Shown here: in pieces, positions 21,217 through 64,000 of the stretch
Layout: the number at the start of each line of letters is the position of its first letter
Numbering within the stretch: the first letter of the stretch is position 1
Assembly: GCF_009496005.1 (NCBI RefSeq)
Contig: NZ_WIBF01000001.1
Span: 806,001 to 870,000 of the forward strand
DNA: 64,000 nt
Source of the DNA: Tritonibacter litoralis
GTDB lineage: Bacteria; Pseudomonadota; Alphaproteobacteria; Rhodobacterales; Rhodobacteraceae
Direction: 5' to 3'
Notes under the pieces: generated by a model
What the model saw: the letters and a program-made list of their open reading frames with translations, nothing else
Databases searched by the model: none
What the model was told of the DNA's origin: nothing
Program-made: the position numbers and the translations under genes

Positions 21217-22731
21217 ATGCTCGACCTGACATATGAACTCCCCAAGCCCAAGGTTATCGCGGGTGCCAAGCATGACTGGGAATTGGTCATCGGCATGGAA
21301 GTGCACGCGCAGGTGAGTTCGAACGCCAAACTTTTCTCTGGCGCATCCACCAAATTCGGAGCTGAACCGAACTCCAACGTGGCTTTTGTTGATGCGGCCA
21401 TGCCGGGCATGTTGCCGGTGATCAATGAATTCTGTGTGGAACAAACCGTGCGCACAGGTCTGGGCCTCAAGGCGGATATCAACCTCTGGTCCGCGTTTGA
21501 TCGCAAGAACTACTTCTACCCGGATCTGCCGCAGGGCTATCAGATCTCCCAGCTTTATCATCCGATTGTGGGCGAAGGCGAAGTGCTGGTGGAACTGGGG
21601 GATGGAACCGCGCGCAATGTACGCGTGGAGCGCATCCATATGGAACAGGACGCGGGCAAGTCGGTCCATGACATGGATCCGAACATGTCCTTTGTTGACC
21701 TGAACCGGACCGGCGTCTGCCTGATGGAGATCGTCTCCCGCCCTGACATTCGCGGCCCCGAAGAGGCCGCCGCCTATATCGCCAAGCTGCGCCAGATCAT
21801 GCAGTATCTGGGCACCTGCGACGGCAATATGCAAAACGGCAACCTGCGCGCAGACGTCAACGTCTCGATCTGTCTGCCAGGCCAGTATGAGAAATTCCAG
21901 GAAACCGGCGACTTCTCCCACCTCGGCACCCGCTGTGAGATCAAGAACATGAACTCCATGCGCTTTATCCAGCAAGCGATCGAGGTTGAAGCCCGCCGCC
22001 AGATCCAGATCGTGGAAGCGGGTGGCGAGATCGAGCAGGAAACGCGCCTTTATGATCCGGACAAGGGCGAAACCCGCTCCATGCGCTCCAAGGAAGAGGC
22101 GCATGACTACCGCTATTTCCCTGATCCCGACCTTCTGCCGCTGGAGATCGAACAGGCCTGGGTTGACGATATCGCCGCCAAACTGCCGGAACTGCCGGAT
22201 GATAAGAAGGCGCGTTTTATCGCGGATTTTGGTCTGACAGATTATGACGCCTCGGTTCTGACCGCCGAAGTGGAAGCGGCACAGTATTTTGAAGCTGTGG
22301 CCAAGGGACGTTCCGGCAAGCTGGCTGCCAACTGGGTGATCAATGAACTCTTTGGTCGCCTGAAAAAGGACGAAGACAAGTCCATCACCGAAAGCCCCGT
22401 CTCACCCGAACAGCTTGGCAGCATCATCGACCTGATCGCGTCCGACGCGATTTCCGGCAAGATCGCCAAAGACCTGTTTGAAATCGTCTATACCGAAGGT
22501 GGCGACCCGGCGCAGATTGTCGAAGAACGCGGCATGAAGCAGGTGACAGATACGGGCGCGATTGAAGCCGCTCTGGACGAAATCATTGCCGCCAACCCGG
22601 CACAGGTGGAAAAAGCCAAAGAGAACCCAAAGCTGGCAGGCTGGTTTGTCGGCCAGGTGATGAAGGCCACCGGCGGCAAGGCCAATCCCAAGGCCGTGAA
22701 CCAGCTGGTGGCGCAAAAACTGGGCAGCTGA
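21217..22731 (+). CDS. gatB: Asp-tRNA(Asn)/Glu-tRNA(Gln) amidotransferase subunit B
   Basis: A 504-residue GatB. It has the signature region [20 protein letters not shown], the cradle-domain [15 protein letters not shown], the conserved [19 protein letters not shown] and a C-terminal YqeY/tail domain (about residues 350-504) that binds tRNA. Together with GatA and GatC it converts misacylated Glu-tRNA(Gln) and/or Asp-tRNA(Asn) to the correct amide. GatA and GatC are not adjacent, as is common in this group. Only a weak AGGG precedes the ATG. The gene ends in a strong terminator. Confidence 0.97.
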
Positions 22732-22750
22732 CCCGAACGACATAAAAGTA

Positions 22751-22780
22751 AAAAAGGTGCCCAGCGAGGCACCTTTTTTA
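22751..22780. terminator. Bidirectional terminator between gatB and the chemoreceptor gene
   Basis: An 11-bp perfect stem (22751-22761 with 22768-22778, 6-base loop) has A-rich and T-rich flanks and can stop transcription from both convergent genes. Confidence 0.92.
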
Positions 22781-22829
22781 CTTATTCACTTATGGTTGCG
22801 CGCAACACTTGGCCTTTTTCATATGCGCG

Positions 22830-25166
22830 TTAGAAGGACGTCCATTTGTCGTCATTTGCTGCGACAGCGACAGTCTCGTCTTGGTGCTCCACGAGTGTAT
22901 CCAGCTCGGCTTCCATGCTCGATTTGGGCGCAGCTTGTTCCAGTGTGTTGCTTGCAGCTGCTGAAGGTTCGGCGGTTTTAAACTTGTCGACAAAGCTGTT
23001 CAGCTTGTTCACATCAGCGCGCAGTAGATGTGAGGCCGCGGTGCTCTCTTCGACCATGGCAGCGTTTTGCTGTGTGACTTGGTCCAGTTGGGACATACCC
23101 ACATTTATTTCCGAAAGCGCTGTGGTTTGTTCGCGTGCGGATTCTGCAATTTGTCCAACAAGCGTTGAGATGTTTTTGACCTGATCAACAATCACAGTGA
23201 GCGCCTCACCGGTGAGTGCTACCATTTTGACCCCTTTGCCAACCTGTTGCCCACTTGTTTCGATCAAGGTTTTGATCTCACGCGCCGCATCTGCGGACCG
23301 CTGGGCCAGGCCGCGCACTTCGGAGGCAACAACCGCAAATCCGCGCCCTGCTTCGCCTGCGCGTGCAGCTTCCACACCGGCATTCAGCGCAAGCAGGTTG
23401 GTTTGGAAGGCGATATCGTCGATAACACCAATGATCTGTTCGATCTGATTGGAGGATGCCTCAATCTCGGTCATCGCCCGAATTGTGTCACGCACAACCT
23501 CACCGCTTTCCTCGGCCTTGCGGCGCGCGTCTTCTACGGTAACTTCCACATTCTCCACATGTTCAGTGGCAGAGCGCACGCTTGTTGTGACTTCCTCCAG
23601 CGCCGCAACGGTCTGCTCCAAAGTCGCCGCTTGTGATTCCGTGCGCTGTGACAGGTCATCCGCCGAGCTGGCCACCTCTCGTGCGCCTTTTTCGATATTG
23701 CCTGCCGTGTCACGTACCATCACAATCACATCGTTGAGCCCAGACAAGGCGTCATTGATGCTGTATCTGAGCTTTTTGTGTTCTTCAGGGAAGTACTCGA
23801 GGACCTTGTTGCGGAAGTCGCCTTCAGACAGCTTCATCAACGCGGTGCTCAGCAGCTGCACAACCTTGGCGTTATTCTTTTGAACGTCCGCTTCGCGCGC
23901 CTGGGCATCCGCACCTTTTTTCAAGCTAATTTGCAGATCTGCGATAGTTTTCGAGATAAAGCCAATTTCATCTGTCCGATCCTGACCCACAATCTCTTGA
24001 TCGTAAACGTCCTGTCCGATGAGCTCCAATTCACGCGTCAACTGTGTGATGCGCTTGATGACCTGGCGCACCACGAACCAGACCAGAACGCAGAGCAATA
24101 CGCCGGTAACCGCCAGTTCGATAGCCCCAAACAGAGTTGCGCGATTGATGAACTTGTTCGCTTCGGCCCGATCGATTTCAAACACCAGCCCCCAACTTTG
24201 ACCGTTTGGAGATTTCACATGGTAGCTTTCGGACACAACCGTCGTGCCGCGTAAACCTGTGGTTTTGGGATTGTATACATCCTGACCAGCAAGCGCGACG
24301 TCAATCTGCTCAAGCTCGGGCAGGACCTCTAGCGCGGCATGCCCGTCGGAATGGCGTGAAGGCGAAAGCGCACGACGGGATTTGTCGACAAGATAGACCT
24401 CTCCGGTTTCGCCCAGCACCTCAGAATCGGACAGGATATGCGCCATCGCATCCATCGAGAGCTGGACCGCGACAACGCCCAGACGACGGCCATCCTGGAA
24501 AACAGGCGTTGACACGAACATCGCAGGCGCGTCAGCGCTGGGGGCATAGCTGTTGATTTCGGTCATATGAAATTCGCCAGCTTGAAGCGTATTTCCCGAT
24601 TGGAAGGCTTCTCCAAGGTCGCTGCCCGCATATTGGCCGCTCACGAAATTGAGGGCAAAGTCGTCTTCTTTGAAGACGGAGTAGACAAGGTTGCCTGCGG
24701 TATCAAACAAGAACAGATCGTAATACCCTTGTGCCCGGGTATAGGACCGCAGCCCGATGTGATGCCGTTCATGGGCAACGGACCACAGGGAGCCATCCCC
24801 GGCCTGCTCCAATTCGTCCTTTTTCCCAACGGGATGGGTGTTTTCCGAAATGTAAAGGCGGCGCAGTTCGTCATCGACCCCGGTGCCAAAGGCCCGCCAA
24901 CCGGCTGTAAAATCAATGAGTGATGATGTGACGGCATAACTGTCCGCAAGCGCGACAACCTCGTCGCGGGACTGGGTCAGCCAGTCTTCCACCGCGGCCC
25001 CTTTTTCATGGACATAGCTCGTATAGGCTGCCCTGTGGTCCGCCTCGATCGCGTCAGAGGATTGTTTCAGCTGCGTTATCCCCAAAGCCGAAACCATCAT
25101 CAATGACGGGATGGCGATTGTAAGGGGCAGCTTCCAGGCAAGCTTCCAATCCGGCACTTTAAACAC
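22830..25166 (-). CDS. Methyl-accepting chemotaxis protein with Cache-type sensor and CheR tether
   Basis: A 778-residue chemoreceptor. The first membrane helix is residues about 13-33. A large periplasmic region (about 34-345) of dCache type contains [23 protein letters not shown] and [14 protein letters not shown] second helix (about 347-368), a HAMP segment and a long coiled-coil signalling domain follow, whose hairpin tip reads [23 protein letters not shown]. The last five residues KWTSF fit the xWxxF pentapeptide that tethers CheR/CheB in some receptors. The start is GTG at 25166 with GGAGGA 7 bases before it. No che genes are nearby. The ligand is unknown. Confidence 0.95.
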
Positions 25167-60940: not shown

Positions 60941-61923
60941 GTCCGACCCTCTCTCAATTGCGGCATGCCCAGCTCTTTTGGGGAAATCCCTTCGGGGTCT
61001 GCATCCGTGCGACGCCCCACCCGCAACCGCGCCGAACGCGCGCGGGGGTTTTCCGCCAGTTCCTGATCGTCGGGGCCCACGGCCTTGCGGGTGACCAACT
61101 CAAATTGGTTGGGCGTTTCAATGGTTTCCGGCGCATAACGGTTGGCGCGCCCGGTGCGCCCTGCCCGATGCTGAAAGAATCGTTTGACCATCCGATCCTC
61201 GACCGAATGGAAGGTCACAACCGCCAACAATCCACCGGGTTTCAACGCACGTTCCGCAGCCAAAAGCCCCGCAAACAGCTCTTCATACTCGCCGTTCACC
61301 GCAATGCGCAGCGCCTGAAAGCTGCGCGTCGCAGGATGTGACTGGCCGGGCTTTGGACGCGGCAGGCAGCTTTCGATGATCTTGGCAAGCCGCAGAGTGG
61401 TTGTGATCGGCTCGATTGCACGCTCTTTTACAATGGCTTTGGCAATGCGGCGGCTCGCGCGTTCTTCCCCAAAGGTAAAGAGGATATCCGCCAGCTGAAC
61501 CTCTTCCAGCTCTGCCACCAGATCTGCCGCACTTGGACCATCCTGTGACATGCGCATGTCCAGGGGCCCATCCTTCATAAAGGAAAACCCACGCTCGGCC
61601 AGATCCAGTTGCATGGATGAGACCCCAAGATCCAGCACCACCCCATCCAGATCCGAAGCGTATTCATCCATCTTGGAAAACACACCCGGCTGCAGGGTCA
61701 GGCGGTCGCCATATTGATCGATCCAACCCGCGGCCAACTCAAACGCCAGGGGATCCCGGTCAACCCCGGTTACGTGATCCGCCCCTGCGTCCAACAAACC
61801 TCGGCTGTAACCACCCGCACCAAAGGTGCCATCCAGCCAAGCGCCCGACACAGGCGCTACTGCCGCCAACAATGGGCGCAACAGAACTGGAATATGTGGT
61901 GCATTCCCCCCGGTCTGCGTCAT
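60937..61923 (-). CDS. rsmH: 16S rRNA (cytosine-N4) methyltransferase RsmH
   Basis: A 328-residue methyltransferase that modifies C1402 of 16S rRNA. The S-adenosylmethionine motif is [18 protein letters not shown], with [19 protein letters not shown] and [16 protein letters not shown] also present. It is the second gene of the dcw run, 12 bases after mraZ. Confidence 0.97.
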
Positions 61924-61935
61924 CGCACCGTCACC

Positions 61936-62427
61936 TTAGCCATCGAGGAACTCCATCGGGTCGAAATCTTCGGGCAGATCTTCCATCCACTTTTCTTCTT
62001 GTGCCAGCTCTTCCGCCTCATAGGTTTCGGGCTTCCAGATCTGGAACGTATCGCCCGCAGCGATAAAGAAGGCCTCTTTGTCGAGCTCGATTTTGCTGCG
62101 CAACTTGGCAGGCAGCACCAGGCGACCGGTCTCATCCACATTTGTCGGGAAGGATTGCCCGTGAAACATGCGTTGCAGCATCTTGCGCTGCATCGAGCCA
62201 CGCGGCAAGGCGTCGATCTTGTCGTCCACCTCATTGATCGCTTCGATTGTGTAAACTTCCAGGAACTTGCGGCGCTGGTCGCCATAGACAATCACCAGTT
62301 CAGGATTGCCACCGGGTTCACAGTTCGGGTCGGATGCCTCCAGCACACGGCGAAAGGAGGCCGGAATAGATACCCGCCCCTTGGTGTCCACCTTGTGGTG
62401 GCCCTCGCCTCTGAACCTGCGACCCAA
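61936..62427 (-). CDS. mraZ: Transcriptional regulator MraZ
   Basis: A 163-residue protein with two SpoVT-AbrB-like MraZ repeats. The first is KVDTKGRVSIPASFR, the second VDETGRLVLPAKLRSK. It binds TGGGA repeats and represses its own cluster in E. coli. The start is TTG at 62427 with AGGAG exactly 7 bases upstream. The rare start would lower its synthesis. It is preceded by a long leader with a terminator (see upsM). Confidence 0.95.
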   Translation of the reverse strand: MGRRFRGEGHHKVDTKGRVSIPASFRRVLEASDPNCEPGGNPELVIVYGDQRRKFLEVYTIEAINEVDDKIDALPRGSMQRKMLQRMFHGQSFPTNVDETGRLVLPAKLRSKIELDKEAFFIAAGDTFQIWKPETYEAEELAQEEKWMEDLPEDFDPMEFLDG

Positions 62428-62473
62428 ACGACCGCTCCTTTACTGCGCCTTTTGGCGCTGTCCCTTCCCCCAA

Positions 62474-62517
62474 AATGAAAAGGGGCGGGTTGATCTGCTG
62501 CCACTGATCAACCCGCC
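62474..62517 (-). terminator. Leader terminator/attenuator of the dcw operon
   Basis: A perfect 12-bp stem (62506-62517 with 62484-62495) with a 10-base loop is followed on the minus strand by CCTTTTCATTTT. Its last arm ends 57 bases before the mraZ start. Since it precedes the first gene, some transcripts must read through. Confidence 0.85.
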
Positions 62518-62686
62518 TCCACAGCCCGCTGAGCGGGTGTCCGACTGCGCGCGCCACCTGGGGGGATGTCTGCTCGCCCGCGCGCCGGATCTCTCTTTTT
62601 TCGAAAAAGCGAAGGCCTGTATGAAACCTGCTATTTTTAGTTTTGGTCGGGGTCGTTTGCTGCCCCAGCTCTCCGTCTTTCGATGA
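62480..62686 (-). ncRNA. upsM: Candidate UpsM small RNA from the dcw leader
   Basis: In Rhodobacter sphaeroides the mraZ 5' leader is about 268 nt. An intrinsic terminator within it releases the roughly 200-nt small RNA UpsM, a feature reported as specific to Rhodobacteraceae. Here the predicted leader is about 258 nt, and a 12-bp terminator hairpin would give an RNA of about 200 nt. Internal hairpins are visible, for example CCCGC/GCGGG at 62525-62537. Identity rests on position, size and structure, not on a sequence search. Confidence 0.75.
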
Positions 62687-62691
62687 GATTA

Positions 62692-62721
62692 GGGATATCA
62701 TGGGAATTAATGGGCTGGCAA
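62692..62721 (-). promoter_or_regulatory. Predicted dcw/upsM promoter
   Basis: On the minus strand TTGCCA (62721-62716) and TATCCC (62697-62692) are 18 bases apart, a moderate sigma70-type match. It places the start near 62685, which agrees with the leader length known from R. sphaeroides. The spacer is filled by the TGGGA-N5-TGGGC box pair on the plus strand. Confidence 0.5.
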
Positions 62722-62873
62722 CTACTAATATCTATAGCTGAGCGTCAGAAAGCTGCTGCAAGCGCGTGCCAGCGACTCACCTCAGGTCAAAATTATGTCA
62801 AAATCCGCTCAATGTGGTGGCGCAATGACATTAACCACCTACATTTAGTGGCGACTTGCACCCATCAAAAAAC

Positions 62874-63088
62874 TCCCATAATTTCCCGAGATTCTTTGGC
62901 GAAGAACAACCGCATCCGCATGCGTTCCCCGTACGTTCTCAAAAAGACGTGGATTCAGCCCAACTAAAGTGATTCGTTCCTGGTTCTCGCAGGCAAATCC
63001 CACGACTTCCCAGACCTCCCATGATTTCCCACACGCAGATGCTGCGCAGACACCTCAGGCGCGCGCCAGGCGTTCCCAAGGTTTCCCA
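62874..63088 (-). promoter_or_regulatory. Three clusters of TGGGA (MraZ-type) boxes
   Basis: On the minus strand TGGGA occurs as a pair with a 5-base spacer (63088-63074), then four times with spacers of 5, 4 and 5 bases (63031-62998), and a pair CGGGA-N5-TGGGA (62888-62874). E. coli MraZ binds TGGGA repeats separated by 5 bases, so these fit its operator. They lie 153-396 bases upstream of the predicted -35 element. Confidence 0.6.
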
Positions 63089-63145
63089 TTTCGCCAAACG
63101 GGCCAATGGCGACCCGCTCAACGCCAGATCTTGCGTTATTGGGAT

Positions 63146-64000
63146 TTAGGCCATGCCGCCCCGGATCAGCCCCGCCGCCATTTGCTCGTAAGCTTCAGCC
63201 ATTGCGCCGCTGCCCAAAGCAACAGGCGCGCCAGCATCGCCCGCCAAACGGGTTTCCAGATCAATCGGCAAGGACCCGATCAAAGGAACCCCCAACCGCT
63301 CCGCCTCAGCTGCGACCCCGCCATGGCCAAAGATATGATGGACCCCACCGCAATCAGGGCAGGCAAAGAACGACATATTCTCTACCAGACCCAGAACCGG
63401 CGTCTTGAGCTTGGCGAACATGTCCAGCGCCTTGCGCGCATCTAACAGCGCAACATCCTGCGGGGTGCTGACCACAATAGCCCCGGTCGGCTGGGACTTG
63501 GTACACAACGTCAGCTGCACATCCCCGGTGCCTGGTGGCAGATCAACCAGCAGCACATCCAGCTCACCCCAGTTGACCTGCGTCATCATCTGCTGCAGCG
63601 CCCCCATCAGCATTGGACCCCGCCAAATGATCGCCTCTTGCTCGGCAACCATCAATCCGAGCGACATAACAGTCACCCCATGCGCCTTGAGCGGTTCGAT
63701 CATCTGCCCGTCAGGGCTGCTGGGGCGCTGTGTGAGGCCCATCATGCGGGGCTGGCTGGGACCATAGATATCCGCGTCCAACAGACCAACACGCCGCCCC
63801 TGCCGCGCCAATGCCACCGCAAGATTTGAACTGACGGTGGATTTACCAACCCCCCCCTTGCCGGAACCGATGGCAAGGATCCGCTTTACGCTTGATGGCC
63901 GCATCGCACCGGATTGAGGTTTCATATGACCGCCCAGTTTGAGACCCTGAGCACTGGTCCTGAGACCTTGAGCACTGGTCGCAGGCGCGCCCTGATGCGC
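63146..64000 (-). CDS. mrp: Mrp/NBP35-type iron-sulfur cluster carrier ATPase (5' partial)
   Basis: The C-terminal 284 residues of an Mrp protein; the frame stays open to the window edge, so the N-terminal MIP18/DUF59 domain is outside. The deviant Walker A is [10 protein letters not shown]. The switch region [30 protein letters not shown] and the cluster-binding CPDCGG motif are visible. It carries and transfers Fe-S clusters in the cytosol. The linker ahead of the ATPase carries a 21-base tandem duplication. It is followed on the same strand by the dcw promoter region. Confidence 0.94.
63940..63981. repeat. 21-base tandem duplication within mrp
   Basis: Two adjacent 21-base units (63940-63960 and 63961-63981) match at 19 positions and encode two heptapeptides of the type TSAQGLR/K in the Mrp linker. 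The frame is maintained. Confidence 0.8.

Follow-up and report, generated by a model that had tools for sequence, protein, structure and literature searches.

The mraZ leader of Tritonibacter litoralis

We analyzed a 64,000-nucleotide stretch of the Tritonibacter litoralis genome, referred to below as the window. Here mraZ, the first gene of the division/cell-wall (dcw) cluster, lies on the reverse strand (61936–62427; Pfam MraZ, E = 8e-18), as do the features described below. The gene opens with a TTG codon at 62427 that is preceded by a ribosome-binding-like AAGGAG (62440–62435). According to Pfam, rsmH and ftsI follow mraZ and a NUBPL/ParA-type ATPase gene lies before it. The best-scoring MraZ relatives came from Epibacterium ulvae (94%), an uncultured member of the Rhodobacteraceae (90%) and Leisingera (90%), together with Roseobacter, Tritonibacter and Ruegeria, which places the genome in the roseobacter group of the family.

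The 5' leader of mraZ in the window contains an element resembling UpsM of Rhodobacter sphaeroides. There, the terminator in a 268-nt mraZ leader yields a 206-nt small RNA (sRNA), UpsM, which is abundant, bound to Hfq and cleaved by RNase E to about 130 nt in a stress-dependent manner (Weber et al. 2016, PMC5089854). Transcription starts about 268 nt before mraZ, with no start closer to the gene, and read-through into dcw was estimated at about 1 in 100 (Weber et al., PMC5089854). We identified the R. sphaeroides genome (G051) via its reaction-centre L protein (100%) and used its mraZ region (L113) for comparison. Counting back the published length of the R. sphaeroides leader gives a start at L113:1137 (PMC5089854), which aligns with ~62684 of the window. 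With this start, the full mraZ/dcw leader, i.e., the read-through form, would span 62428–62684 (~257 nt), and the terminated leader, the predicted UpsM RNA, 62474–62684 (~210 nt). An earlier sequence-only reading had placed the 5' end near 62685 and had estimated about 258 nt for the leader and about 200 nt for the terminated RNA. Its 5' end was right because the published R. sphaeroides start maps to ~62684. RNA production, the efficiency of termination, RNase E cleavage and the effect on dcw would be as in R. sphaeroides, by analogy with which we infer them.

From the alignment we assign a predicted promoter to 62691–62721, with a −35-like TTGCCA (62721–62716), a spacer and −10 region overlapping the MraZ-like boxes described below, and the start at ~62684. 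The TTG is present at 90% or more in the leader alignment. A scan with the sigma-70 consensus reported no promoter in 61900–63400.

The intrinsic terminator hairpin, corresponding to region R4 of UpsM, occupies 62484–62517, i.e., about 200 nt past the inferred start. Its strands GGCGGGTTGATC and GATCAACCCGCC are fully paired over 12 bp and enclose a 10-nt loop, AGTGGCAGCA (62505–62496), that is conserved in sequence. It is followed by the T-rich tail CCTTTTCATTTT (62472–62483), in which the UpsM 3' end is expected near 62474 if termination is as for the 206-nt RNA of R. sphaeroides (PMC5089854). The perfect 12-bp hairpin and the T-rich tail upstream of mraZ had been described in the sequence-only reading and are present as described, at 62517–62484 and 62483–62472. 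A scan for terminators that allowed loops of 3–8 nt did not report this hairpin, the loop of which has 10 nt. Perfect Watson–Crick stems of at least 12 bp with loops of 3–12 nt occur at only two places in the 64-kb window, 62517–62484 and 22746–22783. At the latter place, up to 16 bp pair without mismatch in a hairpin that has a T run at its end and an A run on the other side; it sits between the convergent open reading frames 21217–22731 (+) and 22830–25166 (−) and is probably a two-way terminator.

Conservation of the leader within Rhodobacteraceae

Of 198 family genomes, 194 yielded an mraZ gene. Our leader set comprised 111 of these 194 upstream regions, i.e., 30 from the search, 80 that were fetched and the one from R. 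sphaeroides; the 110 leaders other than R. sphaeroides were the best-ranked of a list sorted by MraZ similarity. After removal of 14 leaders without the core motif, and then of 8 without the loop at the expected distance or too short, 89 of the 111 were aligned; a smaller alignment held 29 of those 89.

Window and R. sphaeroides leaders have the same base at 148 of 212 aligned positions and, within the core, at 113 of 152. They have a common place before mraZ and a common order of elements, i.e., R1 stem, R2 hairpin, R3 and terminator. The fold of the window's leader RNA was better than that of 200 out of 200 shuffled sequences (z = −4.34); that of R. sphaeroides UpsM was less exceptional (z = −2.34, with 2 of 200 shuffles equally good). 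The R1 stem is formed by the 5' strand TCGAAAGACGG (62673–62683) and the 3' strand CTTCGCTTTTTCGA (62601–62614), as assigned from the fold and from a strand-swap test: in 92 of 105 leaders the helix with its own 3' strand was more stable than the mean of 20 strands swapped in from other genomes. The 3' strand adjoins the counterpart of the R. sphaeroides RNase E site, which was published at 694,720 (PMC6238624), corresponds to L113:1221 and falls at ~62598 of the window when counted along the alignment. The R2 hairpin, ATCCGGCGCGCG ... CGCGCGCAGTCGG with the near-invariant loop GAGCAGACATCCCCCCAGGTGG, spans 62541–62590. R3 is a small hairpin, CACCCGCTCAGCGGG (62525–62539), that was found by folding and has an aligned counterpart in R. 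sphaeroides.

The R1, R2 and terminator stems covary among the aligned leaders. Changes on both sides were seen in 11 of 14 pairs of R2 and in 11 of 14 pairs of the terminator stem across the 89 leaders. For both hairpins together, 98.1% of the cells of this alignment are paired, and 22 of 28 pairs change on both sides. Covariation this strong did not occur in any of 500 shuffles, and sliding the partners destroyed the signal, the structure having been derived from the same alignment. Some segments are conserved beyond the needs of pairing within the RNA, namely GGTTTCATACAGGC, AGATCCGG, GCGAGCAGACATCCCCCCAGGTGG and the terminator loop TGGCAGCA. In the terminator, the stem varies by compensation and the loop barely changes; a recognizable loop motif was present in 104 of 110 leaders (R. 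sphaeroides joined the set later), and TGGCAGCA itself in 74 of the 80 named loci introduced below. No partner of this loop (62505–62496) was found.

Two additional hairpins had been proposed as antiterminator or ribosome-access elements at 62525–62537 and 62445–62458. Both exist, i.e., CCCGCTCAGCGGG inside 62539–62525, which corresponds in place to R3, and GCGCCAAAAGGCGC inside 62459–62445; the antiterminator role is not supported. On this evidence the latter is no antiterminator candidate; it is located past the terminator, in a part of the alignment that mostly lacks conservation. No fold competing with the terminator appeared in the limited set of folds that we made.

We built a covariance model from 29 family leaders, including those of the window and of R. 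sphaeroides; these two match the model by construction, because both are in the training set. The match in the window's own genome (G000:C1:868479-868632) is likewise one to a training sequence. A covariance search had been proposed as a check in the sequence-only reading. Run with this model, it recovered the element from 146 of the 149 genomes in the order sample, which turned out to hold one family only, with one match per genome except for one genome with two pieces. It also matched all 80 best loci of the named collection, i.e., those of the named MraZ neighbours. In the class sample, 3 of 190 genomes matched, all three from the same family; the other 187 gave no match, and the 20 of them that were listed belong to other families. 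The mraZ region of Escherichia coli was not matched by the model either. All covariance searches used strict filters, with which weak matches may be lost. In a record titled Nocardioides marinus (L255), MraZ is roseobacter-like (88%) and UpsM is matched as well; the record is probably mislabelled.

Rfam reported no family in the window at gathering scores. Five Rfam matches on the regions L113, L115 and L119 (Leu_leader, HCV_SL588, sraL, Trp_leader and SorX, E up to 1) were rejected as chance matches, because all were well below gathering scores.

The UpsM-like identity claimed from the letters of the window was thus borne out by the 148 of 212 identical positions, the order of R1 to R4 and the covariance model. 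We regard it as confirmed by sequence comparison that the element is the UpsM-type leader of mraZ and dcw in a roseobacter-group member of the Rhodobacteraceae, and that the hairpin at 62517–62484 is the terminator of this leader.

A conserved sRNA complementary to the leader

Five genomes were searched for GCCTGTATGAA, the complement of part of the conserved segment GGTTTCATACAGGC. This pattern occurred at 23 places, compared with 2 for the pattern read backwards. Besides UpsM, all five genomes carry one common second intergenic locus that matches it and looks like an sRNA gene. This locus has an RpoH-like promoter (CTTG...TATA), its start is invariant, and the stem of its terminator varies by compensation. 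In the window's genome the locus lies at G000:C1:370136-370290, about 0.5 Mb from UpsM on the same contig. A match to the sRNA was obtained in 193 of 198 family genomes. Of the 190 genomes in the class sample, just the three family members mentioned above gave a match, and none of the other 187 did. We read the sequences of 72 of the 193 genomes with a match. ACUGCUCGAUAGGUUUCUUGCCUGUAUGAAACCUGCCUCAA lies at the predicted 5' end. None of the first 41 nt, ACTGCTCGATAGGTTTCTTGCCTGTATGAAACCTGCCTCAA, differs among the 72 copies, and the next base varies. A CTTG-N-TAT pattern lies upstream of the invariant predicted start in 68 of 72 copies, and by count the RNA would be about 72–76 nt long.

The sRNA could pair with UpsM in blocks. 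Block 1, GCAGGTTTCATACAGGC (62615–62631), is a perfect 17-nt complement of sRNA nt 20–36. A complement of 16–17 nt is found here in 69 of 108 leaders, with shuffled seeds reaching at most 10 nt; the 17-nt site itself is exact in only 36 of 109 leaders. A second block in the R2 loop, CGAGCAG (62570–62576), is perfectly complementary to sRNA nt 2–8. It was present in 96 of 105 leaders and in none of 200 shuffled segments, and it is also part of the best R. sphaeroides duplex. Between the two lies a weaker middle block, GAGAGATC (62588–62595), that would form 8 bp with sRNA nt 12–19, some of them G–U. Here a run of at least 7 pairs was seen in 56 of 105 leaders compared with 210 of 1050 shuffled segments, and the block is absent from the R. 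sphaeroides duplex. We hence rejected a description as three equal blocks, the middle one being weak and missing in R. sphaeroides.

The energy of the sRNA–UpsM duplex was below that of all 50 mononucleotide shuffles of the sRNA in every one of 105 leaders. Co-folding with the sRNA gained 13.5 kcal/mol for the window and 9.3 kcal/mol for R. sphaeroides, and both predicted complexes had an open R1 stem. Removal of the 5' part of UpsM raised the unpaired probability of the RNase E region from 0.28 to 0.44 in the window and from 0.16 to 0.43 in R. sphaeroides. Blocking of the pairing site alone left it unchanged (0.28 to 0.29 and 0.16 to 0.16, respectively), and some of the RNase E region is itself paired with the sRNA in the complex predicted for the window. 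The folding models weakly support an exposure of the RNase E region by sRNA pairing. We saw no co-variation between sRNA seed and UpsM site; none could become visible because the sRNA is invariant in the 72 copies.

In R. sphaeroides, the sRNA StsR (72 nt, dependent on RpoHI/RpoHII) pairs with UpsM and with the dcw leader; the pairing alters the UpsM structure and exposes an RNase E site, and it also affects dcw read-through and mRNA (PMC8307010, PMC8625941). Very probably, the conserved partner found here is StsR, judging from its counted length, RpoH-like promoter and complementarity. It is improbable that the partner is instead a second, unnamed UpsM-binding sRNA and that StsR proper is an RNA at 0.858 Mb of the R. 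sphaeroides genome or still another one. This would fit the numbering of R. sphaeroides sRNAs, which looks like a position: RSs0682 lies at UpsM, 694.7 kb, and RSs1624 at 1724.5 kb (PMC6238624). The old name of StsR, RSs0827, would then point to about 0.85 Mb if the numbers follow the map, and the sRNA described here lies at 1.444 Mb in R. sphaeroides. Moreover, 11 nt (plus 4) of the 0.858-Mb RNA are complementary to R. sphaeroides UpsM. However, the 72 nt and the RpoHI/RpoHII dependence of StsR fit the 1.444-Mb RNA better, with its RpoH-like promoter and its counted length of about 72–76 nt. The 0.858-Mb RNA is about 86–90 nt long by count, has a different promoter, and its complementarity to UpsM is not conserved. 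We rejected the 0.858-Mb locus as the conserved partner because the UpsM complement is only about 7 nt long in most other genomes. Single 11-mers mean little in the k-mer scan around 0.858 Mb, since it gave 57 matches where about 15 were expected.

The 0.858-Mb locus (G051:C4:858030-858150; L220:18030-18150, L235–L244) is itself a conserved sRNA-like locus, which was matched in all 10 genomes searched with E up to 0.01. It consists of a 5' hairpin with the loop CGGAAC, the conserved segment CACTGTCCCTCGTTCC, which could pair with this loop, and a terminator. Rfam gave no match in the two loci of this type that were scanned.

The chrR gene is known in R. sphaeroides. In our searches of this genome (G051) with Pfam and NCBIfam, neither ChrR (PF12973, TIGR02451) nor RpoE was recognized, and the search may have missed them. 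rpoE, a published StsR target, was therefore not located in the genome searched.

Operator-like MraZ repeats and a proposed control of the leader

Published MraZ sites consist of seven-base repeats that recur every 10 nt, three bases apart, and they are placed at the dcw promoter or across it (PMC7761207, PMC5282649). Repeats of this type, TGGGA with a 10-nt period, fill the UpsM promoter of the window and recur 190–405 bp upstream of the start. In the promoter, a repeat scan found an operator-like triple box, reverse strand GGGATATCAT GGGAATTAAT GGG (62691–62714), which runs from just past the near-invariant TTG up to the start. Further upstream it found the distal box pair CGGGAAATTATGGGA (62874–62888), four TGGGA units (62998–63031) and another distal pair, TGGGAAACCTTGGGA (63074–63088). 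The stretch between the ATPase gene and the UpsM promoter that carries these distal clusters (62730–63146, about 400 bp) is apparently non-coding. All five box pairs of the 64-kb window lie within 62692–63087.

We counted GGGA-N6-GGGA pairs in 105 upstream regions of 800 bp, with a first-order Markov model giving the expectation. All 105 regions together contained 131 sense and 88 antisense pairs, where 4.8 and 1.5, respectively, were expected. Antisense pairs (TCCC-N6-TCCC) cluster at the promoter (−350 to −260; 83 pairs, 72 of 105 genomes). Sense pairs cluster at −520 to −410 (63 pairs, 62 of 105 genomes) and at −700 to −560 (59 pairs, 47 of 105 genomes). Outside these three main places only 14 pairs were found, and 33 of 105 genomes lack strict promoter boxes. 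Among the named loci, 76 of 80 have a promoter pair and 73 of 80 a distal pair, with one locus having only 273 bp upstream. Because box pairs are enriched and clustered at the promoter and upstream of it, it is likely that MraZ autoregulates the UpsM promoter via these predicted operators. Other regulators have been reported in this region of R. sphaeroides, where ChIP-seq peaks upstream of mraZ were assigned to NtrX and, less certainly, to CenR (PMC7240162, PMC9275681).

As UpsM homology and a matching stress-type sRNA coincide in one genome, the sequence-only reading of the locus was correct, and we propose a likely control circuit. Transcription would start near 62684, and the majority of transcripts would end at the 62517–62484 hairpin to give UpsM of about 210 nt, with a minority reading through into mraZ and the division and cell-wall genes. 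MraZ may bind the TGGGA repeats over the promoter and in the upstream clusters and thereby repress its own operon together with UpsM. Under stress or in stationary phase, the sRNA with the RpoH-type promoter, very probably StsR, would pair with UpsM and, over the segment they share, with the dcw leader, using two conserved blocks to which the window adds a weaker third between them. Pairing could open the R1 stem, so that RNase E might cut the adjacent AU-rich site and both UpsM and dcw mRNA would fall. We consider this overall account, i.e., an UpsM leader with MraZ repression and StsR pairing followed by RNase E cleavage, probable from the sequence data and by analogy with R. sphaeroides. 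Regulated read-through is inferred in it, and the sRNA with the RpoH-like promoter and MraZ itself are candidate signals for control of the leader. More tentatively, and with slightly greater doubt than confidence, we suggest that the division cluster of Rhodobacteraceae is under one fixed RNA–protein circuit. Pairing with the stress sRNA, the first 41 nt of which stay the same across 72 genera, would keep the separate leader blocks conserved, and MraZ would cover promoter and upstream operators, perhaps by looping, to set the level of UpsM and of the division genes; the terminator loop would be a further recognition element.

Other readings have to be weighed against this account. The leader could be an UpsM ortholog with the terminator as a fixed bottleneck, passing a constant small read-through, and with pairing that serves only sRNA turnover and not dcw control. 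We regard this as unlikely. It agrees with the absence of terminator-competing structures from the limited set of folds made here, and with the report of Weber et al. that R2–R4 refolding is not conserved and that about 1 in 100 transcripts reads through in R. sphaeroides (PMC5089854). However, StsR pairing was reported to affect dcw read-through and mRNA in R. sphaeroides (PMC8625941, PMC8307010), and the pairing blocks of the window fall in the part common to UpsM and the long dcw mRNA.

In a riboswitch or other ligand sensor, an idea raised by Weber et al. (PMC5089854), the terminator would be switched when the near-invariant R2 loop GAGCAGACATCCCCCCAGGTGG takes up a metabolite or protein. 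The R2 and terminator loops are indeed conserved in sequence beyond pairing needs, but sRNA pairing explains about 7 nt in the R2 loop region, R2–R4 refolding was reported as not conserved (PMC5089854) and no Rfam family reached gathering scores in the window; we judge this reading quite improbable. That the hairpin simply terminates the upstream gene, and that no small RNA is made, is hardly credible. A same-strand gene does end at 63146, but the hairpin lies about 630 bp past it with a conserved promoter-like region between them, and structure and sequence are conserved over about 200 nt in the family.

UpsM itself is already published and was described as a feature of Rhodobacteraceae from a smaller set (PMC5089854), so that the window element adds one more member. 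The UpsM arrangement, previously worked out in a single phototroph, recurs in nearly all genera sampled from an abundant family of marine bacteria. For this arrangement, the sequences document homology, structure, operator-like repeats and complementarity. We did not find the pairing blocks, the invariance of the partner or the operator clusters in the literature searched, the scope of which did not extend to the main StsR paper (Gruetzner et al. 2021), and we claim no priority for them. The exact pairing blocks and operator sites are supplied here as targets for mutation. If the proposed circuit is true, the stress response, MraZ feedback and cell division would be linked through one leader, and what sets dcw read-through would become directly testable in a non-pathogenic roseobacter or in R. 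sphaeroides.

The closest relative of the window element is UpsM of R. sphaeroides, with which it shares position, predicted lengths of leader and RNA, R1–R4 order, terminator and RNase E region. The two differ in the mraZ start codon, which is GTG in R. sphaeroides and TTG in the window, and in the sequences of the stems, which have diverged through compensatory change. A small open reading frame was reported in R. sphaeroides. SreA and SreB of Listeria are likewise prematurely terminated leaders turned sRNA (as described in PMC5089854); in contrast to UpsM, for the leader of which no ligand is known, they are SAM riboswitches. The MraZ operators of E. coli, Burkholderia cenocepacia and mollicutes resemble the boxes found here in their TGGG/GTG-core repeats, their 10-nt period and their place at the dcw promoter, as seen in the MraZ-type repeats of the E. 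coli mraZ promoter, GTGGGAAATTGTGGGGCAAAGTGGGA. In the window, however, the promoter boxes occupy the other strand, overlying the spacer and −10 region, and extra clusters occur on the sense strand about 190–405 bp upstream of the start. With StsR, the sRNA described here would share a length of about 72 nt, a promoter of RpoH-like appearance and base pairing with UpsM. To this comparison the present analysis adds conservation throughout the family and pairing in blocks.
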